Below, one piece after another: positions 4,989-25,818 of a DNA stretch of 64,000 bases; the first letter of the stretch is position 1, and every line of letters begins with the position of its first letter. The stretch spans positions 62,001-126,000 of the forward strand of contig NZ_FOYS01000004.1 of the NCBI RefSeq assembly GCF_900115785.1, written 5' to 3'. The translations under genes were made by a program, and so were the position numbers. The notes under the pieces are model-generated. The model ran no database searches, had not been told where the DNA came from, and worked only from the letters and a program-made list of their open reading frames with translations. The stretch comes from Halogeometricum limi. Lineage in GTDB: Archaea > Halobacteriota > Halobacteria > Halobacteriales > Haloferacaceae.

Positions 4989-5939
4989 ATGACCGACGGC
5001 CACGCTTCGTCGCTCGACGACGGCGACGCCCCCGCCCTCCCGGAGGACCTCGACGCGGTTCGCGACGCCCTCGTCTCGTGGTACGAGGCGGACCACCGCG
5101 ACTTCCCGTGGCGGCGGACCGAAGACCCCTACGAGATTCTCGTGAGCGAGGTGATGAGCCAGCAGACGCAACTCGGCCGCGTCGTGAAGGCGTGGGAGGA
5201 CTTCCTCGACGAGTGGCCGACCACCGCCGACCTCGCGGCCGCAGACCGAAGCGACGTCGTCGCCTTCTGGAGTTCGCACAGTCTCGGCTACAACAACCGC
5301 GCGAAGTACCTGCACGAGGCCGCCCGACAGGTCCGAGAGGAGTACGACGGCGAGTTCCCGCAGACGCCCGACGAACTCTCCGAACTGATGGGCGTCGGCC
5401 CCTACACGGCCAACGCCGTCGCCTCGTTCGCGTTCAACAACGGGGACGCCGTGGTGGACACGAACGTCAAACGGGTTCTGCACCGCGCGTTTGACGAAAT
5501 CCATAATGCGGACGATCCGGACTACGAAACCCTCGCGAACGCCCTTATGCCGCCCGGAGAGTCACGTATGTGGAACAACGCGATTATGGAATTGGGCGGA
5601 GTGGCCTGTCAAAAGACTCCGAAGTGTGACGAGGAGGGTTGTCCGTGGCGGAAATGGTGCTACGCGTACGAGACGGGTGATTTTACTGCGCCGGACGTTC
5701 CGACGCAGCCTGAGTTCGAGGGGAGTCGACGGCAGTTTCGGGGGCGGATTGTTCGAGTGCTAAGTGAGTACGACGAACTGTCACTGGACGAACTGGGACC
5801 AAAGATTCGTGTCGACTATAATCCTGAAGGGAATCACGGCAGAGAATGGCTTCGAGAACTGCTCAGTGACCTATCCGACGATGGATTGATCCACATGAAA
5901 AATTGCGACGGCACTACTATTGCCCAACTTCGCAGGTAA
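4989..5939 (+). CDS. mutY: A/G-specific adenine glycosylase MutY (hybrid: native N-half, element-borne C-half)
   Basis: Base-excision repair glycosylase that removes A opposite 8-oxoG. The HhH-GPD core is present: EVMSQQTQ with the catalytic Glu region, helix-hairpin-helix MGVGPYTANAVASFAF, then VDTNVKRV with the catalytic Asp. A four-Cys [4Fe-4S] loop CQKTPKCDEEGCPWRKWC follows. The first 164 codons have host-like GC-rich codons. From about 5482 onward codon use turns AT-rich while the protein stays MutY. The displaced original C-terminal half lies at 31246-31707. I infer that an integrated element cut mutY at accgcgc and supplied its own 3' end, so this hybrid should be functional. Confidence 0.93.
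   Translation: MTDGHASSLDDGDAPALPEDLDAVRDALVSWYEADHRDFPWRRTEDPYEILVSEVMSQQTQLGRVVKAWEDFLDEWPTTADLAAADRSDVVAFWSSHSLGYNNRAKYLHEAARQVREEYDGEFPQTPDELSELMGVGPYTANAVASFAFNNGDAVVDTNVKRVLHRAFDEIHNADDPDYETLANALMPPGESRMWNNAIMELGGVACQKTPKCDEEGCPWRKWCYAYETGDFTAPDVPTQPEFEGSRRQFRGRIVRVLSEYDELSLDELGPKIRVDYNPEGNHGREWLRELLSDLSDDGLIHMKNCDGTTIAQLRR
5482..5488 (+). other. Left attachment core (attL) inside mutY
   Basis: The sequence accgcgc is shared with the right junction and continues imperfectly (gtttgac here, cttcgac at the right). Seven bases fit the 6-8 bp overlap cut by tyrosine recombinases. The exact crossover is inferred. Confidence 0.7.
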
Positions 5940-6064: not shown

Positions 6065-7147
6065 TTGAGGAAAACCGATAGCAGCTCAATTTTTGACGAC
6101 TCGAGAAAGTCATTTATATACACGATAGGTATCAATAATGGACTGATGAATCTCGTAAGGGATAGTCTCCAACAGGCACCTGACCCGCTAGATCACATAA
6201 AAATCAATAACATGGCGATTTCTGATCTGGCATTTGAATTGAAGAACGCTAAGTTAGAGATCCCCGAATGGCGACATTCGATATTTCTTGATGAAAATGA
6301 TCCAGACGAGTCTGTTGAGAGTGTCATTAATTACATTCTTGTCGGTAATTCGATAAATTTTCAGTTCCGGGATTACGAATCTGGAGAAAAATTCCGATCA
6401 GAATATAACGGACAGACCTGGACAGGAGCGTTTGGTATGTGGGCGTGTTTGAAGCGTGCCTGTGATAATGGAATACCCATTACGAATGGTGAATATTTGC
6501 AGTCTCTGTCACAAAGTGATGTAGAAAATATTTTCCACACATCTTCTGGACCAGATATCCCACTTCTGAATGAGAGAGTCAAAATACTTAATCAGATTGG
6601 GGAAATTCTAGTAAATAAATACGACGGCAATTTCTCATCAGTAGTGTCTGGAGCTGCAAGCTATCTCTATCATGACGGGAATGGTCTCCTTGAGATCCTG
6701 AATGAAGATTTCCCTCCATATCGAGACTGTGCTACAATAGCTACCGAACATGGTGATAGAGAAATTCACTTTCTAAAACGCTCTCAACTCGCAATAGCAG
6801 TTCTCTATGGAAGATTTCATGAGAGTAACAAATTTATGATACACGATCCAATGGAATTTACGGTGTTTTCAGATTACAACATACCCAATATCCTAAGATA
6901 TTATGACATACTGGAATACGATCGATCATTAACGGAAAAAATCGATTCTGGCGAATTTATTGAAGAATGTAGCCAGATGGAGCTCGAACTTCGTATTGCA
7001 ACGATACGTGCAGCCGATAGACTTCTCCTCAAGTTAAATGAATACCACGAAGATCAGATAACTGCTCCCCAGTTAGATTGGGAGCTATTCCAGAAACGTG
7101 ATTCGGTAGACACCAAACCTCATAAATCAATTACTACTAACTATTGA
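6065..7147 (+). CDS. Queuosine-salvage-type protein (Qng1 / DUF2419 family)
   Basis: Resembles the queuosine-5'-phosphate N-glycosylase family (DUF2419), which frees the 7-deazaguanine base queuine from its nucleotide. Family signatures: GIPIT (136-140), IPLLNERVKILNQIGEIL (about 165-182), FPPYRD (216-221), the KRSQL segment (238-242) and the FSDYNIP motif (268-274), which keeps the family's conserved Asp. The 360-aa length suits the family. Haloarchaea make archaeosine, not queuosine, so the substrate here may be another 7-deazaguanine nucleotide, perhaps one from modified DNA. That is inference from its place beside the DpdA/QueF operon. The start is TTG 6065, the first start codon after a stop at 6053; ATG 6146 is an alternative. 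Confidence 0.75.
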   Translation: MRKTDSSSIFDDSRKSFIYTIGINNGLMNLVRDSLQQAPDPLDHIKINNMAISDLAFELKNAKLEIPEWRHSIFLDENDPDESVESVINYILVGNSINFQFRDYESGEKFRSEYNGQTWTGAFGMWACLKRACDNGIPITNGEYLQSLSQSDVENIFHTSSGPDIPLLNERVKILNQIGEILVNKYDGNFSSVVSGAASYLYHDGNGLLEILNEDFPPYRDCATIATEHGDREIHFLKRSQLAIAVLYGRFHESNKFMIHDPMEFTVFSDYNIPNILRYYDILEYDRSLTEKIDSGEFIEECSQMELELRIATIRAADRLLLKLNEYHEDQITAPQLDWELFQKRDSVDTKPHKSITTNY

Positions 7148-8238: not shown

Positions 8239-8619
8239 TCAAGAACGATTGTTCTGACCTAATACCGATATTTCTACACGATGTGAGACTTTGACGTTAG
8301 AGCGACTAAATGAGAATACTTTGTACACATTATCTTCCTTGTCTTGTACCAGAGTGGTCGTGGACCGATCCTCTTTCAGCCGGAATATCCCAAAGTGAGA
8401 ATAGCCGTCGTTCGCCAGGGATCTAAGATCTTCGTGGGAACAATTATGAAGATCACCAACCTCAATGAGTTTCCCTATGTAATCGGCCACGTCATGTTCG
8501 CGGAGATAGCGTAACTGGTACCAAATTGTATCGTCTTTATCTTCTTGAGAAGCCTCGAATTCTGACAGTTGGTTCAATAATATACTGGATGAATCAATAT
8601 CATTATCGTTGTCAACCAT
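8239..8619 (-). CDS. Hypothetical protein (126 aa), element cargo
   Basis: Not recognised. It is a small, very acidic soluble protein with no membrane segment. A central part, WYQLRYLREHDVADYIGKLI, looks helical (possibly winged-helix-like), followed by a beta-rich end with FGIFRLKEDRS and VYKVFSFSRSNVKVS. It lies 105 bp downstream of the 821-aa PglZ gene on the same strand, so it could be the last gene of that operon or have its own promoter. The ATG at 8619 is the only good start. Codon use matches the AT-rich element. Confidence 0.6.
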   Translation of the reverse strand: MVDNDNDIDSSSILLNQLSEFEASQEDKDDTIWYQLRYLREHDVADYIGKLIEVGDLHNCSHEDLRSLANDGYSHFGIFRLKEDRSTTTLVQDKEDNVYKVFSFSRSNVKVSHRVEISVLGQNNRS

Positions 8620-8724: not shown

Positions 8725-11190
8725 TCAGGCCCGCAACTCGTTATCGATCAAACTAGTATCAAACTCTACAAACGGAATGAACATTTCGTCGAATGTGAAC
8801 GCTCCGTGAGTAGCAGTCATATCTTCTTTTTCGGAATAGTACCGCCGTTTAAACCGAAGCGTTCGACCATCGCACTTGTCTTTCGTCAAGGCTCTGAGCT
8901 CTTGCATGGTTTGCTTAGGTAGGATCTCGAACCATTGATTTTCTGGGTTCTTCCCGAAAGAATTGCTTTGTTGGTTATTATCTTTAAGCCCTGCAACCCG
9001 TTGACCAAGATCTTGATAGTATTCACCTCTGTTTTTCAAGGCGTTCAATCCCTCTCCTGATGTCAGTGATTTTCTGGAATTGGCGGTACGGACCATTCCG
9101 TGATCCGCCGTAAGAATAGGTAGTATATTGTCGCCGAGTCGCTTGGTAAGTTGTTTCACAAACGTTGCCAAATCATCTGCCACACCAGGTATCAATGAGT
9201 CTGCGATGTGGTCAGTGCCTTCGTGTAGTTGGTCGATTTGATTATGCTGGAGAAAGTGAACCGACTTCTCGTACTGGTTTACAACGTCTGCAATGTGTTT
9301 AACAGTCTCTTTCTGGAATGCAGCGTCCTCTGCCCTGAGCCCTTCCAAATGTACGAAGTTGTCTGCAGCACTTCCGAGAACTTCGCTGAAGCCGCCTGCG
9401 CCATCATGGAGATAGCTCAAAGCTTGAGTATATGCACCCGCTCTTCGGGCACGGTCGAAGAGGTTCCCCTCTGGCGGATTGATTGCTTTTTGAATATCGT
9501 CTCTGCCATGCTCAATCGGGAATTGGCCTGTGAAAAGCGAATAATGGCCTGCCCCTGTTTCTGACGGGAAGATTGTCGTCATGGGCGTGTTTGAGGCAAC
9601 CCCATTTTTGGCCCAATCGCTGATTTTCTCGTTGTTGTGAGTTGCTTCAAGCCATTGGCGTAGACCGAATCCATCAGATACAATCACGAGAATGTGATCG
9701 TGATTATCGAGGAGTTTTTCAACCTTAGTTGGGATATCAGTGATCATCGCGACTTCTCGCGATGTGGGATCTGTGTTTGCCCACTGGCGATAAGTATCAC
9801 GGATGTAGTCTTCACACACTCTAAGGACGGCATCTGCTATTTTCCTCTCTGTTTCCCCGAACTGAGTCGATAAAGACGCTTCCCGGTCGAGTTGATCATC
9901 GTATAATTCGATACAATCTGTTGGAGACTCTGGTGACGTCGGGGAGAGTGCCGAAATCATCTCCCGGGCGTCAGTTAGATTCGATCGGGTTTTCGCAGCT
10001 TCTTCCGATGCAACCGGTTCAATGAAATCTTCGATCTCTTCGAGTCTGGTTATTAGCTTATTCACCTGACTTTCTTCGTTCGCAATCGCTGTATCAAGAT
10101 CTGATAGAAGGATATCCGATTCTAGGGCATCAACCACTGTTTGAATCCCACTTGTTGGAGAACTTGAAAACAGAGCTAATGGAATCTGATCCAGATTATT
10201 GATTATGTTCTCTTTGAGTTCTTTTGGTCGACTCTCCCTCACATGTCGTCGTATCTCGTCTATTCCGATATCGATTGAATCAATCGACCGGAGTGCGCCT
10301 TTCTCATCTGCGAGCTGTTGAGCCATCTCATAGCTCTCGGGAGAGGCAATGTTAACAAGAACAGACCGGAAGTCCGAGTCCAGATCGGTCAATTCAGTAC
10401 TTATACTGAGTTCGTTTTTTGCCTTCTCGAGCTTCGTATCAATAAGCATATTAGACCGTGACGCTGCAGCTTCTTGAGCATGGGATAACAAAGCATACGA
10501 CTCCCATTCGGTCTTCGCTCCTCGTGTTGCCTTTGCGTACGAAAGCGCCTGTTCACCTGATAGTGTTTTTTCGTTTTCTCTGATCCATCCCATGTGGATC
10601 GCCCACGCTTCATGTTCCAACGTGACTTTCGCAGGCTCCTCCAATGCGAAAATGAAATCATCACTGGTGAGAAGCTCTCGAAGAATCGTCTTTCGTATCT
10701 GTTCAGGAGAGTCTGCGTTGCGACACTCTGCTACTAATACTGGCTGTTTATCAATCAGTGCTGGAAGAGGGATTCCTGATTGACCCTTTCTCTTTGCTAT
10801 CAGGAGCTCAAGAGCGTTCACACGGAGAGAGAGATCACACTCATCGTCAGCATTGATCAAGTCTTGGTACTGCATAACATCCGAGAACCGGAGGGAAAAG
10901 CGAACCTTTGATAGTACCTCTGTGAGGTCGTCGAAGTACTGGATTACTTGTGGAGCGTCTTTGACCTGTGATCGGGCTGCTATCGCTTCCCAATTTGCGG
11001 CAAAACTGTCAAAGTCCCTGGTGATATACAGCTGTGTAACTGCTCCACGATCTGCACTATTTCGGATTTCCCGAATTGACGACGCGTCCATCACATCGAT
11101 CAATTCTGCTGAATCACCCTCAGGGCTGACTACCTCAGGTGAGGGACCTTCCCTTCGATACCAGTGATCAGGGTCTTCAACTATATACAT
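8725..11190 (-). CDS. pglZ: PglZ-domain protein, large form (module 2, D2)
   Basis: Protein with a C-terminal alkaline-phosphatase-superfamily PglZ domain, the hallmark family of BREX and Pgl phage-defence systems. The N-terminal 490 residues are mostly helical. The PglZ core has the metal Asp in VIVSDGFG (D506), the nucleophile region TTIFPSETGAGHYSLFTGQ (538-556), LTADHGMV (DHG 696-698) and a late ATHGAF metal ligand (H795). All ligands look intact, so metal-dependent phosphodiesterase or nuclease activity is plausible. The 821-aa length matches BREX PglZ. It is the last gene of the ten-gene run, 2 bp after the C2 ATPase. A shorter second PglZ protein lies at 18276-19394. Confidence 0.85.
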   Translation of the reverse strand: MYIVEDPDHWYRREGPSPEVVSPEGDSAELIDVMDASSIREIRNSADRGAVTQLYITRDFDSFAANWEAIAARSQVKDAPQVIQYFDDLTEVLSKVRFSLRFSDVMQYQDLINADDECDLSLRVNALELLIAKRKGQSGIPLPALIDKQPVLVAECRNADSPEQIRKTILRELLTSDDFIFALEEPAKVTLEHEAWAIHMGWIRENEKTLSGEQALSYAKATRGAKTEWESYALLSHAQEAAASRSNMLIDTKLEKAKNELSISTELTDLDSDFRSVLVNIASPESYEMAQQLADEKGALRSIDSIDIGIDEIRRHVRESRPKELKENIINNLDQIPLALFSSSPTSGIQTVVDALESDILLSDLDTAIANEESQVNKLITRLEEIEDFIEPVASEEAAKTRSNLTDAREMISALSPTSPESPTDCIELYDDQLDREASLSTQFGETERKIADAVLRVCEDYIRDTYRQWANTDPTSREVAMITDIPTKVEKLLDNHDHILVIVSDGFGLRQWLEATHNNEKISDWAKNGVASNTPMTTIFPSETGAGHYSLFTGQFPIEHGRDDIQKAINPPEGNLFDRARRAGAYTQALSYLHDGAGGFSEVLGSAADNFVHLEGLRAEDAAFQKETVKHIADVVNQYEKSVHFLQHNQIDQLHEGTDHIADSLIPGVADDLATFVKQLTKRLGDNILPILTADHGMVRTANSRKSLTSGEGLNALKNRGEYYQDLGQRVAGLKDNNQQSNSFGKNPENQWFEILPKQTMQELRALTKDKCDGRTLRFKRRYYSEKEDMTATHGAFTFDEMFIPFVEFDTSLIDNELRA

Positions 11191-11192
11191 AT

Positions 11193-14100
11193 CTATTTGA
11201 TAGTTACTTGTCCATCGAATCCCATACTCAGATCGCCAGTACTGATCAATGAGTTCAGTGCGCTCACTACCTCGCTCTTTGATTCGAGGAAGTCCTCATC
11301 AGGAATTTCACGTGCGATATCGTCTGGAGTAACGGTTTGTCTGGACCGAACCATCTTTTTGATCCGTTCTTCAATAGGGACCCGGTCAATCTCTCCTGCA
11401 TCGGAGATACGTTCGATACGATTGAGAATCGACTCTATGCGATCCACAGGTTTGCTCTTCAGTGGTCTGCTACGAATGTCCTCGATTTCTTTGCGTCGAC
11501 CTGGGGGAAGGTTTTCCTTCTCAGACTGGTAGTAGTCCTCTTCGATATCTTTGAGTTCCTCAGCGAAGGTGGAAAACTTCTCTCCATCGCTCATGAATTC
11601 TTCATAGTTTTCACGAATAGTAGCAAGTCCATACACTGTCGACGGCCTGACCTCAAGTACTTCTGATGCGGCGTCCTCAATGGTTTCACTGAATGCAGAA
11701 AAGTCGTCTCTCCAATTTTGGGCACGTTGCCGGGCACTTGCAGTCTGAATCTGAGAGAGTATAGTCCAATTTGGTTGTGAGCTTATTTCCCTTACATGAG
11801 CTCTGATCTCCTGTACTTCATCGGTGATCGAGCTCGTGCGGCGACGTATTTCTTTATCCACTTCGTTCCGCTTTTCCTGGGCGTTTTCGTATAGCTCAGC
11901 CGCGTCCTGCACAGTGGATTCTATTGAGTCTATGCTCTCTTCCGATACCCCCCGGAAGCTTGTATTTTCGATTTCTTCTGTCGCACTGATGAGCGCCTCA
12001 CCAGCAGCGTCATACAGATTGATTACCTCTGCAGCGTCGTCGCTCAGGTCGATGTCTCTGTCAACATCGTATTCACTAAGATCTGTCTCCTCTAGCGATT
12101 GGAACTTTTCTAGGAGTTTTGCACTTTCTCGAACTACTCGCTTAGAGAGGTTAATCCGAGTGTCAAAGGTCTCAATGGCATCTACAGCATCTCTGACAGC
12201 CTTCGGATCTGGTCTTACTGTAGAAAAGTCTCGGAGAACTCTGTTAACAGCATCGTCATCATTATATTCGTTATAGACCCCTATCTTCTTAAACTCTGGT
12301 AGTATGTCATCATGAACTGCTTGCAAGGATTCAAAGACGTTACTCTCGCTGTCTGCATCCAGCTCTTGTTCAAGGAATCGTCGAGCACCGTTTGACAGGT
12401 CACTCGATTTTGATTGGAGGATGTTGACCTCGTTGAAATATTGAGTTGAGCTATAATCTGTATCGGGATCTGACTCTTTGATTTCCTCAATTCTTCGACT
12501 GGTTTGAACTAGTTTTAGTGCGTAATCCGTTGTATTGAACTTCTCTACCGCCTTGATTGTTGCTTCGTGGAACTCTTGGATGCTCTCGATTAATTTCTCA
12601 ACGGGGTTTGATGTGCCATCATTATTATGTTTTTTTATTTGCTCGATTTGATCTTCACAGACTCCCTGAAGACGAACGATCTCATCTCGGTTTGGAATTA
12701 CGTTCCTTTGGAAACTTTCTGGGAACTCTGGCGAAGTAAGCCATTCTGCAACTTCGTTCACCCCATCAAAAAATATCTTAGCTTCATACGAGCTATCTGA
12801 TGTCCGTTGGATTGTACTGTCCTCAATGCGCACCTTGCCACGCTTTTCGAGAATCGTAAGGAACTCTCTGATGTCTGGGATCGGGTAACCCTCCACAGAC
12901 ATGTGGTTGAAGAGTTTATCCTGATGAATCATCCCATCGTCCTCGTTTTTTATACTATCCAGGATAAGCGACTCAGATTTTGATACCTTCAGTTCGATAG
13001 TTTTTATTGAAGAAGATTGTACTTCGTTCGCGAGGTCATACTTGACCCATTCGTCCATGTAATTTTCGACCGATCCTTGACCATCTGCTTTCCCGATCTC
13101 TTTGATATCTTCCCATGTCAGTTCCGCTCGTGATAGTCCTTCTTCAATCGCGTTCAGATATGCATCCTTCGCATTACTATTCATTCGACCAAGCGGACCC
13201 GGATAGTGTGGATAGACTCGAGTAAATTGGTCCGCTACCCTATTGCCGAATTCGAACTCATCAATATCAAGAGCGTGGCCGACCACTTTTGTTTGGATCC
13301 CAGACATTAGCGCATGAGCACCTTCCGGAAGTTCACTTTTTAATTGACGGTAGCCACAGATCCACTTCTCGAGCTTGTATTCTATGTTTTCAACCTCGTA
13401 GGACCAGTTTTGCTTAAGTGAACCCGGCTCAATGGCCAGAATCCTTTGATTGCTGTAGTTGTGGTTACCGTAGTCAATCGTGATTACGAGCTCGGCGTCT
13501 TGGTCGTCTCGAATCTCCTCCAGTTCTTCAGGAGACTGATTCCCGACTGCAACAAGAAGACGTCGGTCATGAAAGTCTCCGTATGTACTTTTGACAATGA
13601 AATAATGTTCATCGTCATTATGGCTTCCAGGAATTAGCTCACTTTTGAACGGATCAGTATCTTGGAGTACAGCACAGAGGTTACGATAGAGGATCTCTTC
13701 ATCTACCATAACATTGGACATGGTATTCTCAACAATCCGTTTTAGTTCTCCAGCTGTCTCTGCTTCTCCCTCTTTTAGCAGAGCATCAAGTTTCCCACCC
13801 GACAGCTCGTATTTTAGTGTGCTTCCACTCTGTCGACGAGTAAGCCACCCTCTCTCATGCAGATGCTCAATCCGATCATCAAGACTATTCTCATCTAAGT
13901 GAAGTACTTCTAGTAACTCAGATCGAGAAATACCCACATCAAGGGTTGCAGCAATACTCGAGAGAACTCCCATCTCATCAAATTTCTTGATTTGATTAAA
14001 TTGATCTCTGACAAAAAAGCCCCCGTCACCAGCTGTGAGGGCGTCCGTAGAGAGGAATATATCGCCGGGACTTACCCATCGAGTTTCGTCATTCTTGAAG

Positions 14101-15179
14101 AATAAATTATATCCATCCTTCATCAGTTTAATCGCAGTCCGATTTGAGTCTGCTCGATCTGCAATCTGATGAATCGCTCGTAGAGTCGTAGTATGGAGTG
14201 GAAATACGTCGCTATTATCTACTTCCGGAAGATCTACACCTTTTCGAACAAGATATTTCTCTCTTCGTAGTTTCCAGGTTTCGAGCAGTTCCTCTTCGTT
14301 GAGGGGACGCAGTCGTACATGTTGTCTCGGCGTCGGACCAAACATTCGGTCCATCATTGCAGCGTGGACCTGTTCGAACCGGTTCCACTGATCCCGAGGT
14401 GCGGTCATAATCATCAGGACCGGTGTCTCTTGGTCAATTTCGTCGAAGAACTCCCGATACTTATCGAGATCTTCGAAGCTTACGTCTTCTCCACGAACGA
14501 TGCCTTCGATCTCGTCCATGAGAAGAACGACTGCGTCGTAAAGTTCCTCATTGACGATCGACTTACATCCTTCCGAGAAAGCTATGCCCGCATCCTGGCC
14601 TTGTCGCTTCTGAACCTCGCGATCTTTGAATCGAGCTTCTGCCTCCTCACGACTTAACCCTAGTTTGACAAATTCGTCAATGACCGCTTCTGTTTCGTCA
14701 TCTTGGACATCAGAGATCTTCTCAGCAGCGTCAGGACCGATCTCTGCTTTTACCCGCTCACGCAGTGCTTCAACGATATCTGCCGGATTACTAGTGAAAT
14801 TGAAGGGGTCTAAAGTCAGGAGATTCATCCCCTCGGGGCAGACAATCTCTTCCTCGTTTTGGAGGAGTTTATGGATCTGAGAAAGGAAGTGGGTTTTTCC
14901 GTCACCGTATTGGCCAACTACCCCGTACCCCTTCATTTCCGGATATCCCGCAGGAGAATTTTTGTACTCGCCGAGTAGCTCTTTGATGTTGGCAAGACCA
15001 TCGGTGTGTACGTCGCCCAGTGAAGTGAGAGCAGCGTACTGTTCGATCTTTTCTTTAATTTCCCCTTTTTCGTATTGACCTGGTTTTGTCTTTCCTAGTT
15101 TGACAACGGTTCTGAACGCACTACTGTCTTGTTTGAAATACTTGCTGGGAGGGCCCTGAACGATTGATTGTGAAGACAT
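11193..15179 (-). CDS. Very large P-loop ATPase with coiled coils, BrxC/PglY-like (module 2, C2)
   Basis: 1328-aa ATPase. Walker A is GQYGDGKT (residues 89-96) and Walker B is AVVLLMDE (216-223). A following MTAPRDQWNRF stretch resembles a sensor region of AAA+/STAND-like ATPases. Winged-helix-like segments occur near 400-460 (LGVISRSELLEVLHL-type). From about residue 820 to the end the protein is dominated by long charged coiled coils. Size, P-loop style and position before a PglZ gene resemble BrxC/PglY of BREX, but direct family membership is inferred. DpdH of the bacterial Dpd system is another large-ATPase alternative. It overlaps B2 by 1 bp. Confidence 0.75.
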   Translation of the reverse strand: MSSQSIVQGPPSKYFKQDSSAFRTVVKLGKTKPGQYEKGEIKEKIEQYAALTSLGDVHTDGLANIKELLGEYKNSPAGYPEMKGYGVVGQYGDGKTHFLSQIHKLLQNEEEIVCPEGMNLLTLDPFNFTSNPADIVEALRERVKAEIGPDAAEKISDVQDDETEAVIDEFVKLGLSREEAEARFKDREVQKRQGQDAGIAFSEGCKSIVNEELYDAVVLLMDEIEGIVRGEDVSFEDLDKYREFFDEIDQETPVLMIMTAPRDQWNRFEQVHAAMMDRMFGPTPRQHVRLRPLNEEELLETWKLRREKYLVRKGVDLPEVDNSDVFPLHTTTLRAIHQIADRADSNRTAIKLMKDGYNLFFKNDETRWVSPGDIFLSTDALTAGDGGFFVRDQFNQIKKFDEMGVLSSIAATLDVGISRSELLEVLHLDENSLDDRIEHLHERGWLTRRQSGSTLKYELSGGKLDALLKEGEAETAGELKRIVENTMSNVMVDEEILYRNLCAVLQDTDPFKSELIPGSHNDDEHYFIVKSTYGDFHDRRLLVAVGNQSPEELEEIRDDQDAELVITIDYGNHNYSNQRILAIEPGSLKQNWSYEVENIEYKLEKWICGYRQLKSELPEGAHALMSGIQTKVVGHALDIDEFEFGNRVADQFTRVYPHYPGPLGRMNSNAKDAYLNAIEEGLSRAELTWEDIKEIGKADGQGSVENYMDEWVKYDLANEVQSSSIKTIELKVSKSESLILDSIKNEDDGMIHQDKLFNHMSVEGYPIPDIREFLTILEKRGKVRIEDSTIQRTSDSSYEAKIFFDGVNEVAEWLTSPEFPESFQRNVIPNRDEIVRLQGVCEDQIEQIKKHNNDGTSNPVEKLIESIQEFHEATIKAVEKFNTTDYALKLVQTSRRIEEIKESDPDTDYSSTQYFNEVNILQSKSSDLSNGARRFLEQELDADSESNVFESLQAVHDDILPEFKKIGVYNEYNDDDAVNRVLRDFSTVRPDPKAVRDAVDAIETFDTRINLSKRVVRESAKLLEKFQSLEETDLSEYDVDRDIDLSDDAAEVINLYDAAGEALISATEEIENTSFRGVSEESIDSIESTVQDAAELYENAQEKRNEVDKEIRRRTSSITDEVQEIRAHVREISSQPNWTILSQIQTASARQRAQNWRDDFSAFSETIEDAASEVLEVRPSTVYGLATIRENYEEFMSDGEKFSTFAEELKDIEEDYYQSEKENLPPGRRKEIEDIRSRPLKSKPVDRIESILNRIERISDAGEIDRVPIEERIKKMVRSRQTVTPDDIAREIPDEDFLESKSEVVSALNSLISTGDLSMGFDGQVTIK

Positions 15180-15784
15180 TATTCTTTATTTGCTTTGATG
15201 AAGGAATTAACCACTGTATGGTATCCGAAGGTCTCTGCAGGATCTGTGTTTATCTCTGGAGAGACTGTGTCCATTGGTGATGCGTCTTTGAGGTTTGACA
15301 GTAAGTGATCCACCGTAAATGTATCCATTTTGTTCAGTTGGGTGTTAACAATACGCATTCCTCGAATTACTGTCTCAAACCACTCGTTAGTATAGTACTC
15401 TGGAAAGACAAGCCAAACTGAACGTTCGTATGAACTTAACGGATGTTCTATATACTCGTGAATCTGTTCTAAGTACGTTCGTTCTTTTGGAATTACGTCA
15501 AAGTTGTCTATGACTACAACTTCAGATCCGTCAACCTTGTCCTCTAATTCTGAACTTGACGTAGAATCCAACAGCTGAGAAGCTGGTAAATAGAGAAATT
15601 CAGACCCTTCTTCCCTTAAGAAATGGCGAATGGCAAAAGTCTTCCCGGCTCCGATTCCACCGTAGATTCTAAGATCATGATCCTGGTCTAATTCTTCGGT
15701 CAACAGTTTCTGATGACTAGTAAGTGAGTACTCTTCAGGTGACGACCAAAGAGCCTCTAATAGTCGATTTCCCAATTTGTTCAT
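15179..15784 (-). CDS. Small P-loop ATPase (module 2, B2)
   Basis: 201-aa protein of compact AAA/ORC-like type. Walker A is GGIGAGKT (42-49) with Walker B EVVVIDNFD (88-96). A later aromatic stretch, SVWLVFPEYYTNEWF, takes the place of a sensor strand. There is no obvious extra domain. It sits between A2 and the giant ATPase C2 and overlaps C2 by one base, so the two are probably translated together. Its counterpart in module 1 is the 170-aa protein at 23329-23841, which has the same layout but little sequence identity. By position it corresponds to brxB in BREX operons; real homology to BrxB (DUF1788) is not shown here. Confidence 0.7.
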   Translation of the reverse strand: MNKLGNRLLEALWSSPEEYSLTSHQKLLTEELDQDHDLRIYGGIGAGKTFAIRHFLREEGSEFLYLPASQLLDSTSSSELEDKVDGSEVVVIDNFDVIPKERTYLEQIHEYIEHPLSSYERSVWLVFPEYYTNEWFETVIRGMRIVNTQLNKMDTFTVDHLLSNLKDASPMDTVSPEINTDPAETFGYHTVVNSFIKANKE

Positions 15785-15799
15785 CCTCTATACAAGAAG

Positions 15800-16618
15800 T
15801 CATAGTAGGGTATCTTGTAAATCATTGGGTCCAATGTTTCCGACCTGAATGTCAAACACCCCCCCAAATGGATTAGTTCGTGCGCTATCACCCATCGTGC
15901 CATACGTGAAGAGAGAATATCGGTCTCTGGTTTGTCTCAGCAATTGTTCTGTTCCTTCATCAGAACAATTCACCAGCCTTGGAAGACGCTGACGCAAGTA
16001 TGGTGCCTCGAGTGTTTGGTGATTTTGTCCCAAGAGATAGACACCATATGGAATTGATTCAGGGACTGCTTGGTCACGAGTAATCAGTTTCCATTTTTTC
16101 TCATCACCCGGTTGGTCTACATTCAATAATTTGAAATCGTCTATGAGATGAAGTGCGTTCCTCACAGAGTTCTCTTTCGAGGTCGAACTGGTGTCACTAA
16201 TCGTAATCATCCGCTCATGGATCTCTTCTGCACTCAACGATTGAGATGCAGATCGCAGAATATCCAGGGTATATGCTATTGTCGGCATTCCTCGCATGTG
16301 TTGGATGAGAATGTCGTCAAGTAGATCGCTCCTTTTTGCTTTAATCACGTAACCAGCGAACTCTCCGCTATCTGTTGGTGAATTATCTGAACCCAGAAAT
16401 CCGAATTTTTTCAATAATGCATTTGTCTCTTCGCCGGCGCTAGTGCTCGCGCCCGCATACTTTTCGAATTCCTCAATCAGCCGATCCCGATCGTAATCAA
16501 CTTTCTCGCCTACGTGGTAGATAATGTGGAGAAATTTTCGAAGGTTGTCTCGACTGCGTGCCCGTACATGTTGACACTTCGCGGGCGTATTATCTATGTT
16601 GGCAAAGTATAATTCCAT
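15800..16618 (-). CDS. Winged-helix-like accessory protein (module 2, A2)
   Basis: 272-aa protein of unknown function. Residues about 40-90 read as a winged helix (DRLIEEFEKYAG, then LLKKFGFLGSDNSPTDSGE). The LLKKFGFL...TDSGE block (68-86) aligns with VLKKMGVL...TERGE (62-80) in the protein at 23828-24691, so the two are probable paralogues. A second HTH-like stretch is at AEEIHERMITISDTSSTSKENSVRNALHLI. It follows the GNAT gene with no gap and precedes B2 by 15 bp. By position it parallels BrxA, a DNA-binding BREX protein, or DpdG. This is an inference from context. Confidence 0.65.
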   Translation of the reverse strand: MELYFANIDNTPAKCQHVRARSRDNLRKFLHIIYHVGEKVDYDRDRLIEEFEKYAGASTSAGEETNALLKKFGFLGSDNSPTDSGEFAGYVIKAKRSDLLDDILIQHMRGMPTIAYTLDILRSASQSLSAEEIHERMITISDTSSTSKENSVRNALHLIDDFKLLNVDQPGDEKKWKLITRDQAVPESIPYGVYLLGQNHQTLEAPYLRQRLPRLVNCSDEGTEQLLRQTRDRYSLFTYGTMGDSARTNPFGGVFDIQVGNIGPNDLQDTLL

Positions 16619-17101
16619 TTATATTTCCTTCTTCATGAGCGCCATTTCTCGTCCCCCATCCGTTGTCCTCGTTGACGTAACCTGGAAGTCCATAGTTAGC
16701 CAGAACTGTTTTGCATCACTTGAAGCAGCTGTTTCAGCTATCAATACAGTTTTCCCTGCCTCTTTGGCGTAATTCTCTGAGGCTTCGATTAAGTCCGCAC
16801 CGAGGCCTGTACTACGGAAGTCCGGGTGAACAGCTATTAACCGTACTTGAGCTTGCCCTGGCTTTAGAACTCGTGATTCACACCAAACCATAGAAGCGCC
16901 GATCACCTCCTCCGTTTCGTTGTCATCAGTAAATAGTATATCCCGTCCTTCATTGCTGACTGCTCGTTCTAACCCATCACGATAGGTATACCAGTGAAGC
17001 TCCTTCTTAATCTGATTGTGGTTATACAATCGTTGAATTCGATCAATGTCCTCCGGGCGTGCAGTTTTAATCGCTGAGCGTTCAAACTCATTAGAAGTCA
17101 T
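16619..17101 (-). CDS. GNAT-family N-acetyltransferase (element cargo)
   Basis: 160-aa acyltransferase of the GNAT fold. The acetyl-CoA pyrophosphate-binding loop is seen in VRLIAVHPDFRSTGLGADLI (about 87-106: beta4, then a RxxGxG/A-type loop with RSTGLG), followed by helix ASENYAKEAG. The substrate is unknown. It is embedded between the HerA ATPase (1-bp overlap) and A2 (no gap), so it belongs to the operon. Two ideas are acylation of a protein partner, or acylation of the aminomethyl group of a preQ1-type base. Both are inference only. The fold call is good. Confidence 0.8.
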   Translation of the reverse strand: MTSNEFERSAIKTARPEDIDRIQRLYNHNQIKKELHWYTYRDGLERAVSNEGRDILFTDDNETEEVIGASMVWCESRVLKPGQAQVRLIAVHPDFRSTGLGADLIEASENYAKEAGKTVLIAETAASSDAKQFWLTMDFQVTSTRTTDGGREMALMKKEI

Positions 17102-18279
17102 TAGTTTTCACCACCTCCGTGTCTGCTCCGACGTGGCCGCATCTGAACAATTGAAATGCTCTCATCTTCATCATCTACATAAACGGCTTGGCCAACCCGG
17201 TCCAATTTTTGGATATATGTCTTTAGTTCGCTACTCATATAATCCTGAGAAAGTCGGTTCAATTCTTGGATGTCCTCACGAGTCGTGATCTTATGACAGA
17301 GGATAACATCACACTGAGAAACCATATCATGATCTAATGCCGATGGTTGTTGGGTTGCTACGGTAAGAGAAACGCCGGGCTGCCTGCCCTCCTTGACCCA
17401 CCGAATTAAGATGTCTTTCGAGAGGGAGGACTCACCAGAGGGAACGAAATTATGAGCCTCATCAATGAATAGCCAGACTCGAGGGACGTCGACTTGAAGC
17501 TCCAATTCTTCGCGTTTTCGTGCTTTGATTCGTCTTTTAAATAAGTCCCTGCACAGCACCGATACAACAAGATTCCGCAGACCGTACTTACCTGGATCCA
17601 CAACACTCAGATCAAGTACGTTCAGGCTCGTCTCATCTAGACGATCCCATATCGGAGTATACGTATCGCTGAACAGCCCCCAGTCTCGGGACATCTCCAG
17701 ACGGTTGAGCAGCGCTTCTTTCGTTCGCTCGTTGGATTGAGCATCGCCCTCTACCGTATCAATAATATCATCCAAATTGAACTCATTTCCCTGCTGTCGG
17801 GACAAGTTTCGTATCGCCCTGTAGAGGGTGATCCCCATTGGCTTATTGATATTCAAGTCAAACAAATCACACCAGCCATCGGGCGAAATGTCAGATGGAT
17901 TGATCTTTATCGCGCTGACTTCAAGTCCTCTCCGCTTCATCTCTGATAGAACTTCTTCACCATATCGCTCCTTCGGATTGCCTGGAACGAGAAGGTTGAC
18001 GCGGTACGCTCGCGACTGAAGTCCCCAGTCCCATAAGCTGTTCTGTTGTTCTTCATTTTCACTAACCATTGTCCAATATATTCCCATTGGGTCAACGATG
18101 AGAGGAACAACACCCTGGGTGTGGTCGTGGACTTCCTCAATGATGTCTCCCATCGAGTAACTCTTACCACTTCCCCGTTTTCCACAAATGAAGACTGCCC
18201 TGGAATGCGAGCCGTCTACGTACTCTTCTTCGTCTGTATCCAGTTCCTTCCCAATAAATAGTTCAATTTCGTCTTTCAT
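17101..18279 (-). CDS. HerA/DUF87-like ATPase
   Basis: 392-aa hexameric-type DNA-translocating ATPase of the HerA-FtsK superfamily. Walker A is GKRGSGKS (33-40) and VDPMGIYW follows the beta2 strand. Walker B is VWLFIDEAHNFVP (268-280, D273-E274). The HerA-type arginine/sensor region WVKEGRQPGVSLTVATQQPSALD (294-316) and a final CDVILCHKIT strand complete the fold. The family often pairs with nucleases such as NurA or SIR2 in defence loci; here it sits between PglZ D1 (4-bp overlap) and the GNAT (1-bp overlap). It may move DNA for the two modules. The family call is secure, the role inferred. Confidence 0.85.
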   Translation of the reverse strand: MKDEIELFIGKELDTDEEEYVDGSHSRAVFICGKRGSGKSYSMGDIIEEVHDHTQGVVPLIVDPMGIYWTMVSENEEQQNSLWDWGLQSRAYRVNLLVPGNPKERYGEEVLSEMKRRGLEVSAIKINPSDISPDGWCDLFDLNINKPMGITLYRAIRNLSRQQGNEFNLDDIIDTVEGDAQSNERTKEALLNRLEMSRDWGLFSDTYTPIWDRLDETSLNVLDLSVVDPGKYGLRNLVVSVLCRDLFKRRIKARKREELELQVDVPRVWLFIDEAHNFVPSGESSLSKDILIRWVKEGRQPGVSLTVATQQPSALDHDMVSQCDVILCHKITTREDIQELNRLSQDYMSSELKTYIQKLDRVGQAVYVDDEDESISIVQMRPRRSRHGGGEN

Positions 18280-19394
18280 TCTGAATCCTCCGAATTGCGA
18301 AACAGCAGTGGTACGAGTGACTCCTCATACGACAGTCCTCCATGAATTCCAAACTCGTCATGATGGAATTCCCGTGAGACAAACGGGTAGGGGAATACTG
18401 TGTACGTACTGCCATAAGCATCGAGCAGCTTTGCATCCCCTTGGACGCCGATTTTTGACTTTGCATACCGCATGTTGCTTTGACCATTTGTAGTCAGAAT
18501 ACTCATATGTGGCTCAAATTCTTTCCGCCACAAGATCCCGTGATCTGCCGTTAGAATAAATAGGTATGAATCGACTTGTTCGTCTAAGACCTCGCAGATT
18601 GCGTCAATATCTTGTTGGAGCTTCTTAATCTCATGATTGATGTCTGACTCTCGAACTTCCTTTCCGTCGTGGGCATCACCATCTAGTGCTCGTCTGCTAA
18701 TTTGAATGAACGTCCGATGGTCGCTCAGCCTTCGGTTTTCCAGATCACTAATGATCTCCTCAGATGTCCGAACCCTCGTCAGTTCCGAATCGCTGAAGTT
18801 CTCAAAAACGAGCTTGTTGAGATCGTTGTAACTCTCCTTATCCCAGTAACTGTAACCTCGCCGCCGCATGAATCCTCGCTTGACTAAGTGATCAACGATT
18901 GGCTTATTATCATGGCCGAATACAATATTTCGGTATCCAATTGGTGTAATAGTTGGTCCGTTGACTAAGCAGGGTTCTCCTTCAAGCTCCGTACCTTGCA
19001 CATCTTTGTATCCCAGCCCGTCAGCAATCATCAGAACGACTACCGACTCATCAGTCAGATAGTCCAATATCCGCCGCTTGATGTCTCGCTGAGTTAGTAG
19101 ATATTCCTCAACTTCTTCATACTTGGTTCCGATAATCTTATTTAGTGCTGGGGAAAGTGGGTCGTGATCGATCGACATTGAGGGGTAGGTAGTCGATGTT
19201 TTCACCCTCGGCTCTTTGATCGCGACGTTCCTTTCGAAACTCTTCGATGGATTATCTAGCTCATCTTCGAACTGCTTCTCTGACTCGAATAACTCAAGCT
19301 CTTCTTGCAAATAGAGATAGCTCAGCGGATGATCAACATCGACTACTACGGGATGAGATTTTGCCTCATCGACGACTTCCTCTAGTTTTGCCAT
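18276..19394 (-). CDS. PglZ-type phosphatase-superfamily protein, short form (module 1, D1)
   Basis: 372-aa protein that keeps the alkaline-phosphatase/PglZ metal motifs: VLMIADGLGY (D125), PTITPIGYRNIVFG in the nucleophile region (147-160, where the usual T-x-TG is altered to VFG), FILTADHGILW (DHG 284-286) and IHGGLSYEESLVPL (HGG 351-353). It lacks the long helical N-terminal part of the 821-aa PglZ at 8725-11190. It overlaps the C1 ATPase by 1 bp and HerA by 4 bp. It is expected to be a metal-dependent phosphoesterase-like component. The altered nucleophile region means catalysis may differ or be lost. Confidence 0.8.
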   Translation of the reverse strand: MAKLEEVVDEAKSHPVVVDVDHPLSYLYLQEELELFESEKQFEDELDNPSKSFERNVAIKEPRVKTSTTYPSMSIDHDPLSPALNKIIGTKYEEVEEYLLTQRDIKRRILDYLTDESVVVLMIADGLGYKDVQGTELEGEPCLVNGPTITPIGYRNIVFGHDNKPIVDHLVKRGFMRRRGYSYWDKESYNDLNKLVFENFSDSELTRVRTSEEIISDLENRRLSDHRTFIQISRRALDGDAHDGKEVRESDINHEIKKLQQDIDAICEVLDEQVDSYLFILTADHGILWRKEFEPHMSILTTNGQSNMRYAKSKIGVQGDAKLLDAYGSTYTVFPYPFVSREFHHDEFGIHGGLSYEESLVPLLFRNSEDSE

Positions 19395-22300
19395 TATTTC
19401 TCAGGTAGATCTCGGAACCGTTTTTGAACAGATAGGTCGAGAAGGTTTAATTTGAATAACTTTGCTAGCTTCACTGCGATTTCCTCTGGGTCTTCCGCCT
19501 CTTCACCTTGAGACTCCAAAATCTCATCGAGTTGGATCTGTTCCCCGAAATCTAGTTTCTCGTAGAGCTCTTGGATATCGTCAGACTTCGGTCGAACAGG
19601 ACGGTTGAGAGCATCTACTTCGTCACTAAGAGTGTCGACTTGCCTCCGAATCTCTGCGAGATTATCAGCAATCTCTGAACCCACCTCTTCACTATTCTGG
19701 AGAGACCAATCAGTTGTCGATTCAGAGACCTCTGAGAGTGCTTCGTATTGGGACTCAAGTTCGTGTGCAATCTCGTCAATCTCCGCACCCCTCGGAACTG
19801 TTTGGAAGCGCTTTGACCGTGAGACTGTTCTCTGCATATCGCTGAGACGACTTTCCATGGGGTCAATAACGTCTGAGTTCAACGTATCCAGAAACTCGGT
19901 TTCCAGATTGTCATATGATTGATCTGGATCCGCTTCAGAGAACTGAACTCGAAGTCCCGGATGCCCCCCATTCGCCGTAGATAGGATATTCTCTAACCGT
20001 TCTTTTTCTCTTTCGAATGCCTTCCGCTTCTGGCCGACCCGCTCGTCGAACTCGTCCTGGATCGCTTTAAATTCACCTTGGTAGGTATCTGCAGCCGTCA
20101 ACAATTCTCTGCCATGCTCAGAGAACTGCTCTGCGATACGTGTAAGCAACCGATCGAGCTTGTTCTCAAACTCATCTTCACCGGAGCGCTCCGTAAACCG
20201 CATAATTCGCTCATCTAGATCGACTGCCCGACCAGCTAGCGTTCGCCAATCTTCAAATCCACCACAGTACTGCTCCTGTTTTTCTATTTCTCCTTCTATT
20301 TCTTCTAGTCGACTCTTTTCGTTTTCACGGGTTTCTGAGAGCTCGATTACCGTCTCAACATTCGGATTCTGCGTATCATTGAGAGTCTTATCTATCTTCG
20401 AAGCCACGTTTCCAGCACGCGAGCCTTGATACTCTAATTGATTGTTGATCTTCGTTCGTTGTTTGTTCAAGTGCCGATTGAATGTGGCAGGAACTTCGAC
20501 CTTGTCCAGAAGATCTGATTCACTACGTCGCTTTAGCGACTCAGCTCGATCAGATAGCTCTTCGAGCGCCCGCTGATTACTGTGAAATTGGGATTTTATC
20601 TCTTCATCAACTGACCGCTTCAGGTTCGTAACTTCTTCTCGGAGATCTTCGAGAGTACCTTCGTCATCGGGAGAGGTATTTTCGATTTGTGTGAGTATTC
20701 TCTCACCCGTGTCTTTTAACTGTTCAGCTGAAGAAGATTCCTTAGGAACCCTATCGAGTCGGGAGAGAGCTTGTTCTAAATCTGGTTCGATATCTTCCTT
20801 ACGGACTGCTGTTTCGACACGAACTAAACTGCCATCCTCCTCGTCAAGATATTGTCGAGCGGTGAGCAGTCGTAGAATCTGGTCAAATTCCTCGTCAGTA
20901 TAACCTTCTTTCTCTGCAATTGCGGTTGCTTTCGTTTTACTCAGAGTTGCCCCTGCCTCGTCTTCGGGGAAATTCTCCAATATCACTTGCTCAAGAGGAT
21001 GCAACGCGAATGTGATTTCCGCAGTATCTGCATCTCCATGCCCCCAATCGAGGTCGATCAGGTCTTCATACTTGCTCGTGAGTTTTGTTCGAAGACTGGA
21101 ATGGTTCTTAACATTGAATGCGTCGCCGAGAGCGTCTTTGTCAACTACTACAGATCGACGACCCTGCTTTTGGGTGAGTCCAAGGTTTAGTACCGAGCTC
21201 TCGAGAGCGGACGTATATTCACCGACCAGTTTCGTGATACTATTTCCCTTGTATAAGGTGTGGTAATTTGGATATTGGTTTCGCATCACCGATCGGAACA
21301 GATCGTCGACCATGCGCTCGCGCAGTCTACGGATTCGGATATGACCTGGTGCCTGGTTTCGTAGTTCGTCATCGAAGAGGATCTCGATTGTCTCCGTGAT
21401 CAGGTTCTCTCGGAGGTTTTCTAAGGATTGAACCTCAGCGAGCGTCATATTATCTTCCTCGCTGTTGAGTTCACGATTAATCCGACTCGTCAGCGCGAGC
21501 ATTAGCAGAGGGGTGACGGAACGAGGGTTCATGTAATCCTTGAGCTTCCGAATACGCTGAGGAAGATCCCCCTTCATCAACGTCTCTTTTAGATCAAGTA
21601 CGATCTGATACGTCTCGTTTTCTTCCAGCTCATTCAGGCCTTCCTCGACCAGATATTTGTGGTCAAGGTAGAACCCCAGCTTGAGATCTGCATCTGAATC
21701 AATTCCATTCTCTGAGTAGACGTCACCTATATCTTGTTGTCGTCCCGTGACCCGCACATAGAGCCCGCGGTTCGGGTAATTCGGGTCGAAAGTACCTTCC
21801 CGATAGGATTCTAGCGTTTGCGCATGTAGCTGATTAGATTCACGAACTGTCCACCCTGTTTTCGATTGTCCCCGTCCCCGAGAGGGAAGGAGTTTTGGGA
21901 TAACATGGTCGTTGAATGCTTTGATCGCGTCAGCTACGTCTTCATCATTCTCTTCGAATTCTCGCCAGAAGTCCCGAAGAACCTCACTTCCGACAGAGAT
22001 GTCAGGGTCACCCTCAACAATATCGACTAATGTAAAGCCGTCTGCGTAATATGTGAGGAGAGTACCCTGGAGCTCCTGACTGAGTTCCTCTATAGTATCC
22101 TTCAATCCATAGGTAGCTGAGACGTCTTCTGTGACACCATTCGGGAAGGCTGCCATGAGCTTGATCGCTCGTTCATGATCCTCCGTCTCTGCTACATCTG
22201 CTGCCATAGCCTCAGCGACCGCACCGCGGACTTTTTGTTGCGGTTCTGTGAACCTAAGGCGGTTATCGATATATGCCTCAATATACTCAATAGGCGTAAA

Positions 22301-23332
22301 CGTGCTTTCCGATTCGATATATTGAGTCACCGCCAAACCCATGGCATCAATTACGGTTCGAGGACCACGACTGAGATCGTCGCGTGTTGCATACTGTCCG
22401 ATTGCAATCAAGGTCTCTTCCGGAATGATCTCATCTTTATAATCCTCAAATTCGTATTTTTCCGCATAATGGTCCCAGAGACGTTTTGGGAATTCATGAT
22501 CGTATGTAGAGGTTAGATTTAATAGCAGGTTGTTCTCTCGAACTCGGTCGAGAATATCCGCACCTCGTTCATTAATAACTGCTAGCTGTTCATCAGGGAT
22601 CGAGAACATCATACCGAATGAGACTGTTCGCGGGTTGAAACCCCAGATTATAGAACGGAGTTCCTCTTCCGCATGAGAATACGAGTGTTTCTTGAAAAAC
22701 TGTTGGACCTCATCAGGGAAAACAACTAACCCCTCGTAACCTGCCTCTTGGACGAGATCTGTTGCTTTGAGGAAGAATTCAACGAGGACCTCTGCTGGTA
22801 AGTCCTCATTCATTCGACCGCTTTCTTGGAGGCCGGTGATTATGTCGCTCAATTTGTCTGCTTCAATATCGTGTTCCTGACCTGCCTCTTCAGCAATTTC
22901 ACTAATCCCTTTGCGCTGGTATTTTTCTCTAAGCTGCCTAACTTGATCGGTATAGCGGTCAGCGAGCTTGTGCTCAAGCCATCCCGTTGTCGCTTCTAAG
23001 ACGTCAATGAGAGATGAAAGGATGAACGGCGGGACAGCAACATAATTTTCATTCTCGCACTTTTCCCAGAAGCTGATTGATGTACTGGTTTTTCCATAGG
23101 CGTACTTGCCAGCGATAATCCCGATGGTTCCATCTCCTTCCCCAAGATTCTTGAGAAGCCTTTCTTCAGTCTCTGAAGTATCCCCTAGTGAGAGATGTGT
23201 ACGAAGATGGTCACGATACTGCTCTTCGACTTCGCGTGGACTGTCTCGCAAGTGACGAGCCTGGACAGTGTCTACTACTTCTTCTTTCTGGGCGATTTCT
23301 TGGAGACGGGAGAGTTGATTTTGAGTGCTCAT
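19394..23332 (-). CDS. Very large P-loop ATPase with coiled coils, BrxC/PglY-like (module 1, C1)
   Basis: 1312-aa ATPase. Walker A is GKYAYGKT (75-82) and Walker B GLVVFPDEVQ (201-210). A long helical/winged-helix middle follows, including a GYTDEEFDQILRLLTARQYL HTH-like segment. The last 450 residues are strongly charged coiled coils (for example SRLEEIEGEIEKQEQ). It is nearly the same length as, and has the same plan as, C2 (1328 aa), with the shared G-(K/Q)-Y-x-x-GKT P-loop style, but sequence similarity is otherwise low. It overlaps B1 by 4 bp and D1 by 1 bp. It resembles BrxC/PglY in size and context; the exact family needs profile comparison. Confidence 0.75.
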   Translation of the reverse strand: MSTQNQLSRLQEIAQKEEVVDTVQARHLRDSPREVEEQYRDHLRTHLSLGDTSETEERLLKNLGEGDGTIGIIAGKYAYGKTSTSISFWEKCENENYVAVPPFILSSLIDVLEATTGWLEHKLADRYTDQVRQLREKYQRKGISEIAEEAGQEHDIEADKLSDIITGLQESGRMNEDLPAEVLVEFFLKATDLVQEAGYEGLVVFPDEVQQFFKKHSYSHAEEELRSIIWGFNPRTVSFGMMFSIPDEQLAVINERGADILDRVRENNLLLNLTSTYDHEFPKRLWDHYAEKYEFEDYKDEIIPEETLIAIGQYATRDDLSRGPRTVIDAMGLAVTQYIESESTFTPIEYIEAYIDNRLRFTEPQQKVRGAVAEAMAADVAETEDHERAIKLMAAFPNGVTEDVSATYGLKDTIEELSQELQGTLLTYYADGFTLVDIVEGDPDISVGSEVLRDFWREFEENDEDVADAIKAFNDHVIPKLLPSRGRGQSKTGWTVRESNQLHAQTLESYREGTFDPNYPNRGLYVRVTGRQQDIGDVYSENGIDSDADLKLGFYLDHKYLVEEGLNELEENETYQIVLDLKETLMKGDLPQRIRKLKDYMNPRSVTPLLMLALTSRINRELNSEEDNMTLAEVQSLENLRENLITETIEILFDDELRNQAPGHIRIRRLRERMVDDLFRSVMRNQYPNYHTLYKGNSITKLVGEYTSALESSVLNLGLTQKQGRRSVVVDKDALGDAFNVKNHSSLRTKLTSKYEDLIDLDWGHGDADTAEITFALHPLEQVILENFPEDEAGATLSKTKATAIAEKEGYTDEEFDQILRLLTARQYLDEEDGSLVRVETAVRKEDIEPDLEQALSRLDRVPKESSSAEQLKDTGERILTQIENTSPDDEGTLEDLREEVTNLKRSVDEEIKSQFHSNQRALEELSDRAESLKRRSESDLLDKVEVPATFNRHLNKQRTKINNQLEYQGSRAGNVASKIDKTLNDTQNPNVETVIELSETRENEKSRLEEIEGEIEKQEQYCGGFEDWRTLAGRAVDLDERIMRFTERSGEDEFENKLDRLLTRIAEQFSEHGRELLTAADTYQGEFKAIQDEFDERVGQKRKAFEREKERLENILSTANGGHPGLRVQFSEADPDQSYDNLETEFLDTLNSDVIDPMESRLSDMQRTVSRSKRFQTVPRGAEIDEIAHELESQYEALSEVSESTTDWSLQNSEEVGSEIADNLAEIRRQVDTLSDEVDALNRPVRPKSDDIQELYEKLDFGEQIQLDEILESQGEEAEDPEEIAVKLAKLFKLNLLDLSVQKRFRDLPEK

Positions 23333-24691: not shown

Positions 24692-24713
24692 GCTCACCAT
24701 CATTGGCTGTGAC

Positions 24714-24725
24714 TATTTAAAATAT
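24714..24725 (-). promoter_or_regulatory. Possible internal promoter before module 1
   Basis: Minus-strand tattttaaatag is an AT-rich TATA-like element about 28 nt upstream of the ATG at 24691, in the 56-bp gap after dpdA. It could drive the A1-to-D2 part apart from queF-dpdA. Confidence 0.4.
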
Positions 24726-24759
24726 TACTGAGAACCCATGTGATAGAGCTAGTCACGAG

Positions 24760-25764: not shown

Positions 25765-25818
25765 TTAAATACCCCAAGATGACAACTCTACACTGTGCGG
25801 ATTAGATTCCATCAAATT

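Follow-up and report, generated by a model that had tools for sequence, protein, structure and literature searches.

A separate archaeal branch of the Q_salvage/Qng1 family, represented by mobile-element cargo in Halogeometricum limi

A 64,000-nucleotide stretch of the Halogeometricum limi genome (hereafter the window) contains a gene of the Q_salvage/DUF2419 family, in which characterized Qng1 enzymes are found. The gene belongs to a separate archaeal branch of this family, named here type B. It is cargo of a mobile element that also encodes a BREX-related capture (BRC) system, and it is not a conserved constituent of that system. As the best explanation of its function, which we judge to be about an even call, type B proteins would be nucleoside-5'-monophosphate N-glycosidases of nucleotide salvage or catabolism, acting most likely on 7-deazaguanine (deoxy)nucleotides.

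RESULTS

Family membership, fold and catalytic residues

The open reading frame, listed with a TTG start as encoding 360 amino acids (Table 1), matched the PF10343 Q_salvage profile with an E-value of 1.5e-59 and 202 bits (cut-off 25), and was the sole Q_salvage match in the H. limi genome. The best relatives of solved structure identified by phmmer were Qng1 from S. thermophilus (7u07/7uk3, E ~1e-40) and from human (7ugk, E 2.5e-34). The true start is probably the in-frame ATG at position 6146, giving a protein of 333 amino acids, since homologues start near residue 28–31 and residues 1–28 of the structural model have pLDDT values below 50; the 27 residues added by the TTG start are without counterpart in homologues.

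An AlphaFold2 model of the protein (pLDDT 80.6) was matched by Foldseek to the Qng1 crystal structures 7u07, 7u91 and 7ugk with TM-scores of 0.78–0.80 and E-values down to 8e-22, evidencing a Qng1 fold. No other convincing match to the model was obtained by Foldseek, HhH DNA glycosylases (AGOG, MagIII) appearing at E-values of 0.04 or worse. Residue mapping placed the active-site residues K199 and D231 of S. thermophilus Qng1 at K238 and D270 of the window protein; the mapping covers these two positions, which are the ones replaced in crystal entries 7u5a (K199C) and 7ulc (D231N). The motifs GIPIT, FPPYRD and FSDYNIP were all found. Thus, the DUF2419 homology and family motifs claimed in a first-pass annotation, which was made from the sequence alone and asked for a profile search, were confirmed by the profile, PDB and fold matches. 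Overall, the protein shares with S. thermophilus and human Qng1 a common Pfam family, the fold (TM ~0.79), the catalytic Asp and Lys, and 25–30% identity.

An integrative element in mutY

GC content drops from ~0.68 to 0.38–0.49 between ~5.9 and ~27 kb of the window. Intact mutY and a mutY fragment located on the far side of this region are 79% identical at the nucleotide level over 273 bases, GC is lower in the 3' part of the intact gene, and integrase-type genes are present, which indicates that an element of ~25.7 kb integrated in mutY and re-supplied the 3' end of the gene. The 3' half of the host's own mutY now lies 25 kb downstream, the end of mutY having been replaced by the element-borne copy.

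The left end of the element consists of the Qng1-like gene and a membrane-protein gene, both with a GC content of 0.38–0.40, below that of the rest of the defence island; the remainder of the element is a defence block on the other strand. The membrane-protein gene follows on the same strand after a gap of 39 bases, and is the likely operon partner of the Qng1-like gene. Its product is an orphan, with no homologues found in 169 other genomes of the family, in plasmids or in viral contigs, and it does not accompany other Qng1 genes. PADLOC returned no defence family for the Qng1-like protein, and Rfam and tRNA scans of the window returned nothing. A viral origin of the Qng1-like gene was rejected, as no homologue was found in viral contigs or phage records, and so was a plasmid origin, as the only homologue among plasmids was a Variovorax protein 28% identical.

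The defence block is convergent with the Qng1-like gene and transcribed towards it, the closest gene of the block being the one that encodes a 126-residue protein. Relatives of this protein found by tblastn (37–53% identity) adjoin four of the six other haloarchaeal BRC loci, and it is possibly an unrecognised BRC accessory. The second BREX-like cassette is arranged in tandem with BRC and lacks a modification enzyme. It was not found at the six other BRC loci, and its proteins showed no clear similarity to their BRC counterparts by blastp.

Table 1. Features at and around the integrative element (positions in the window)
Feature	Position	Strand	Basis or remark
mutY, intact, 3' part supplied by the element (left junction)	4989..5939	+	GC drop within gene; identity to right-hand copy
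Qng1-like gene (type B Q_salvage/DUF2419)	6065..7147	+	PF10343, PDB matches, fold, residue mapping; probable start ATG 6146
Multi-span membrane protein, 277 aa	7187..8020	+	no Pfam match; weak SspF match, E 5e-4
126-aa protein, no assigned function	8239..8619	-	tblastn
Second BREX-like cassette	8725..16618	-	between BRC and Qng1-like gene
Second cassette: PglZ-type	8725..11190	-	
Second cassette: AAA ATPase, 1328 aa	11193..15179	-	
Second cassette: small AAA NTPase	15179..15784	-	
Second cassette: 272-aa protein	15800..16618	-	
BRC operon	16619..26196	-	profile matches, gene order, PMC12839542
BRC: GNAT	16619..17101	-	
BRC: HerA	17101..18279	-	
BRC: PglZ	18276..19394	-	
BRC: BrxC-like ATPase	19394..23332	-	gene order and size; weak profile match
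BRC: STAND NTPase	23329..23841	-	gene order and size; weak profile match
BRC: DUF4007/BrxA-like	23828..24703	-	gene order and size; weak profile match
BRC: DpdA/TGT	24760..25764	-	
BRC: QueF	25819..26196	-	
Integrase-type: N-terminal SAM-like domain	28464..29009	+	
Integrase-type: tyrosine recombinase	29002..30108	+	
Displaced 3' half of the host's original mutY (right junction)	31246..31707	+	similarity to left copy

Relation to the BRC operon and to other DpdA-like systems

The first-pass annotation had placed the gene next to a DpdA/QueF operon. Judged by its gene content and order, this operon is a BRC system, a published defence type that includes a TGT and whose seven named components do not comprise Qng1 (PMC12839542). 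The likeness extends to PglZ, a BrxC-like ATPase, a STAND NTPase, a DUF4007-like protein, HerA, GNAT and TGT, the DUF4007, STAND and BrxC labels following gene order and size in the published system, with weak profile matches. The haloarchaeal loci differ from it by the addition of QueF. As to the reported adjacency, both the operon and the Qng1-like gene do reside in the same island, but dpdA lies 17.6 kb off.

BRC-type DpdA proteins (44–50% identical) were found in 7 of 392 Halobacteriales genomes, the window genome included, and the loci keep the same eight genes, among them QueF; for genome G146 this holds up to the ATPase gene, within which the stretch covered ends, ahead of the last three genes. 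Qng1 was present in three of the 392 genomes and in a single BRC genome, an overlap of one (p = 0.05). Qng1 was rejected as a BRC component, its presence not being conserved among the haloarchaeal BRC genomes.

In the GTDB family of the window genome (170 genomes), four genomes, each from a different genus, carried Qng1. All four had more than the usual two TGT-family genes, versus 46 of the 170 genomes overall (hypergeometric p = 0.005), where the counts of TGT matches include a few split genes. In three Qng1-bearing genomes (G199, G251 and G766) the extra TGTs occur in a different, Dpd-like arrangement. This haloarchaeal block (L060:6704-16031, L061, L062) comprises DUF6884, a TGT, a GHKL ATPase and a TGT-DUF5591 protein, along with large helicase-like and HNH-repeat proteins; DUF6884 is weakly similar to the DpdC family, and the GHKL-type ATPase was not picked out in G251. 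The Dpd-like island adjoins QueD/QueE/QueC genes in two genomes. In Haloplanus ruber (G199), Qng1 is located ~6 kb from an extra DpdA-like TGT, and the Dpd-like block and a QueD-QueE-FolE-QueC operon lie ~2–10 kb from it. Qng1 is far from the extra TGTs in G251, and on another contig in the fragmented assembly of G766. The co-occurrence with dpdA that the first-pass annotation proposed to check was seen in part: six of the seven BRC/dpdA genomes lack Qng1, whereas every Qng1 genome has extra DpdA-like TGTs, with one more physically linked case.

The bacterial Dpd system (DpdA/B/C) resembles the present one in having, within an element, a TGT-family enzyme thought to put 7-deazaguanine into DNA. 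Classical Dpd is not known to have a Qng1 component. The Dpd-like loci of G199, G251 and G766 differ from it in their use of DUF6884, two TGTs and a GHKL ATPase.

QueF and the predicted DNA mark

A QueF protein of ~125 amino acids is encoded in all seven haloarchaeal BRC loci (in the window and at L071, L073, L075, L076, L078 and L081). It contains the catalytic Cys/Asp (CPxxxxPD) and an E-x-K-[SA]-L NADPH-type motif, and its best PDB match was the B. subtilis preQ0 reductase. The DNA mark proposed for BRC is dPreQ0 (PMC12839542). The presence in the operon of a QueF with reductase signatures plus a GNAT suggests that the mark of haloarchaeal BRC would instead be preQ1 or N-acetyl-preQ1.

Two branches of archaeal Qng1-family proteins

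Qng1-family genes are commoner in DPANN archaea than in haloarchaea, occurring in 25 of the 236 genomes from the phylum to which a Nanoarchaeota MAG belongs and on one Micrarchaeota contig. In a maximum-likelihood tree, Qng1 from S. thermophilus and human grouped with 11 archaeal proteins (type A), and all four haloarchaeal proteins grouped with ten from DPANN (type B; both names are used only here), with a support of 98/93 for the split, which was recovered in 100% of bootstrap trees. The window protein is thus of type B, outside the clade of characterized Qng1 enzymes. Type B proteins have neither the W-G-x-P-K-W motif nor the acidic residue found at S. thermophilus position 207 (D207), and contain a conserved LYxDGxG insertion. 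In the same phylum, ~13 genomes of another family (f21; L012-L024) encode ~300-residue proteins that match PF10343 in part and weakly (E 1e-7 to 3e-4), which perhaps constitute a third, divergent Q_salvage branch.

The two types differ in their association with TGT. A TGT was found in nine of 11 DPANN genomes with only type A versus one of nine with only type B (Fisher p = 0.005; 0.015 after merging near-duplicates), counts that include MAGs, possibly incomplete; the TGTs of these genomes are bacterial-like by score and length. When types were pooled, Qng1 and TGT were unassociated in the DPANN sample (11/22 versus 11/20), the association emerging only after the split. Because the sequences had prompted this split before the tree bore it out, the p-value is not fully pre-registered. 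Where type B occurs in the absence of a TGT, this speaks against its recycling bases for such an enzyme in those genomes.

The TGT-family genes of H. limi are two of the haloarchaeal core type (best 296 bits) and the island dpdA; no bacterial-type TGT (409–590 bits), such as would serve queuine or preQ1 on tRNA, was found in this genome. The earlier premise that archaea should not use queuosine is thus upheld for this genome, but it does not apply to archaea in general, because queuosine-pathway genes have been reported in 34 archaeal genomes, DPANN and Methanosarcinales included (PMC8204110). In one Nanoarchaeota/DPANN genome (G848, L131:5824-7943), a type A Qng1 gene directly adjoins a TGT gene with a bacterial-like score of 450 bits, which suggests real queuosine salvage in some archaea.

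Gene neighbourhoods of type B

Neighbourhoods of type B genes were read by eye and represent about four independent contexts, the sister genomes G851 and G995 counting as one event. In G995, the gene is located between ribose-5-phosphate isomerase B (RpiB) and ribulose-phosphate 3-epimerase (Rpe) genes; the same pair flanks it in G851, where the epimerase gene overlaps type B by 4 bases. On the Micrarchaeota contig (L009), the gene immediately next to type B resembles cytidine deaminase (sub-threshold match), and genes for a pfkB/ribokinase-family protein, transaldolase and transketolase lie at a distance of ~5 kb or less. In G878, type B is followed by genes for a nucleotide pyrophosphatase-type protein and a nucleoside phosphorylase. 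Near the gene of the haloarchaeon G766 are an IU-nucleoside hydrolase, an adenine deaminase (by reading), a cytidine deaminase, nucleoside 2-deoxyribosyltransferases and an ECF-type transporter. In two sister DPANN genomes (L118:7980-8414, L119:8037-8453), a pyrimidine-dimer DNA glycosylase-type gene adjoins type B (PF03013 shown for G878). The window copy has no nucleotide-metabolism gene among its neighbours, and hence the role proposed for the window gene rests on clade membership.

DISCUSSION

Characterized Qng1 frees only queuine, from queuosine (Q) or its 5'-monophosphate (PMC11130926). By the same chemistry, a type B protein would hydrolyse the N-glycosidic bond of a nucleoside 5'-monophosphate, and the resulting free base and (deoxy)ribose-5-phosphate could enter nucleotide salvage or catabolism. 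The salvage role is proposed because ribose-5-phosphate and bases would be usable by the products of genes found next to type B. That the base would be a 7-deazaguanine is suggested by the known specificity of the family (PMC11130926) and by the haloarchaeal co-occurrence with extra DpdA-like TGTs; ordinary nucleotides may also be substrates. In most archaea, 7-deazaguanine nucleotides would come from tRNA containing archaeosine; in haloarchaea that have DpdA-type systems, modified DNA would be a source.

Much of this evidence could also be read as pointing to a general purine/pyrimidine NMP nucleosidase that feeds ribose-5-phosphate to central metabolism, is unrelated to 7-deazaguanines and came into the island as a chance passenger. 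The pentose-phosphate enzymes (RpiB, Rpe, transaldolase, transketolase), deaminases and nucleoside hydrolase encoded near type B would suit such an enzyme, as would the dearth of TGT in most type B genomes and the divergence of type B from type A around W-G-x-P-K-W and at S. thermophilus D207. We nevertheless consider it unlikely, though the most serious of the rivals, given the narrow specificity of known Qng1 and the extra DpdA-like TGT genes of all four haloarchaeal carriers, one of them near a preQ0 operon. Queuosine salvage proper, in which queuosine nucleotides of bacterial origin would yield queuine for the island DpdA or a core TGT, agrees with the conserved catalytic residues and with the co-occurrence of type A homologues and bacterial-type TGTs in other archaea. 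It appears very improbable for a type B protein in a genome devoid of bacterial-type TGT, and the QueF gene of the operon indicates that the cell produces preQ1.

Two further readings assign the protein to defence. The first-pass annotation saw in it a possible glycosidic-bond-cleaving part of the dpdA system, which would either strip 7-deazaguanine bases from DNA or recycle them specifically for the island DpdA. The common element, the presence of DpdA, QueF and GNAT, and the distant resemblance of the fold to the DNA glycosylases AGOG and MagIII are in favour of this. However, no dedicated link exists in six of seven haloarchaeal BRC genomes, the gene is on the opposite strand from dpdA, published BRC has no such component (PMC12839542), and characterized relatives act on mononucleotides; nothing ties Qng1 to the BRC machinery, leaving base removal from intact DNA unsupported and the reading as a whole highly doubtful. 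Slightly less so, although still improbable, is a separate small defence module made up of the Qng1-like and membrane proteins, which might, for instance, destroy nucleotides when the cell is infected, the membrane protein serving as its sensor or effector. The close spacing, shared strand and distinctly low GC of the two genes, the defence-rich integrative element and the weak likeness of the membrane protein to SspF fit such a module, but PADLOC has no family for Qng1, the membrane protein is an orphan missing beside other Qng1 genes, and other haloarchaeal and DPANN homologues adjoin metabolic genes.

A nucleotide-recycling accessory is a more likely role for the window protein than an active component of the adjacent defence system that marks DNA. 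As a special case of nucleotide salvage, the recycling of bases from degraded modified DNA, also put forward in the first-pass annotation, retains partial support from the extra DpdA-like TGTs (p = 0.005). A fuller version, tentative and with somewhat less than even chances, is that type B constitutes an unrecognised class of archaeal N-glycosidases, acting probably on 7-deazaguanine NMPs from tRNA or modified DNA, which would work without a TGT and, in haloarchaea, recycle the base of DpdA systems.

Archaeal DUF2419 proteins should not be annotated as queuosine salvage enzymes. The reductase signatures of QueF in the BRC operon lead us to expect a DNA mark based on preQ1, perhaps in acetylated form. 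The type B branch hints at a nucleotide-catabolic step that would be new for archaea and at a way in which the bases of 7-deazaguanine-modified DNA might be recycled.
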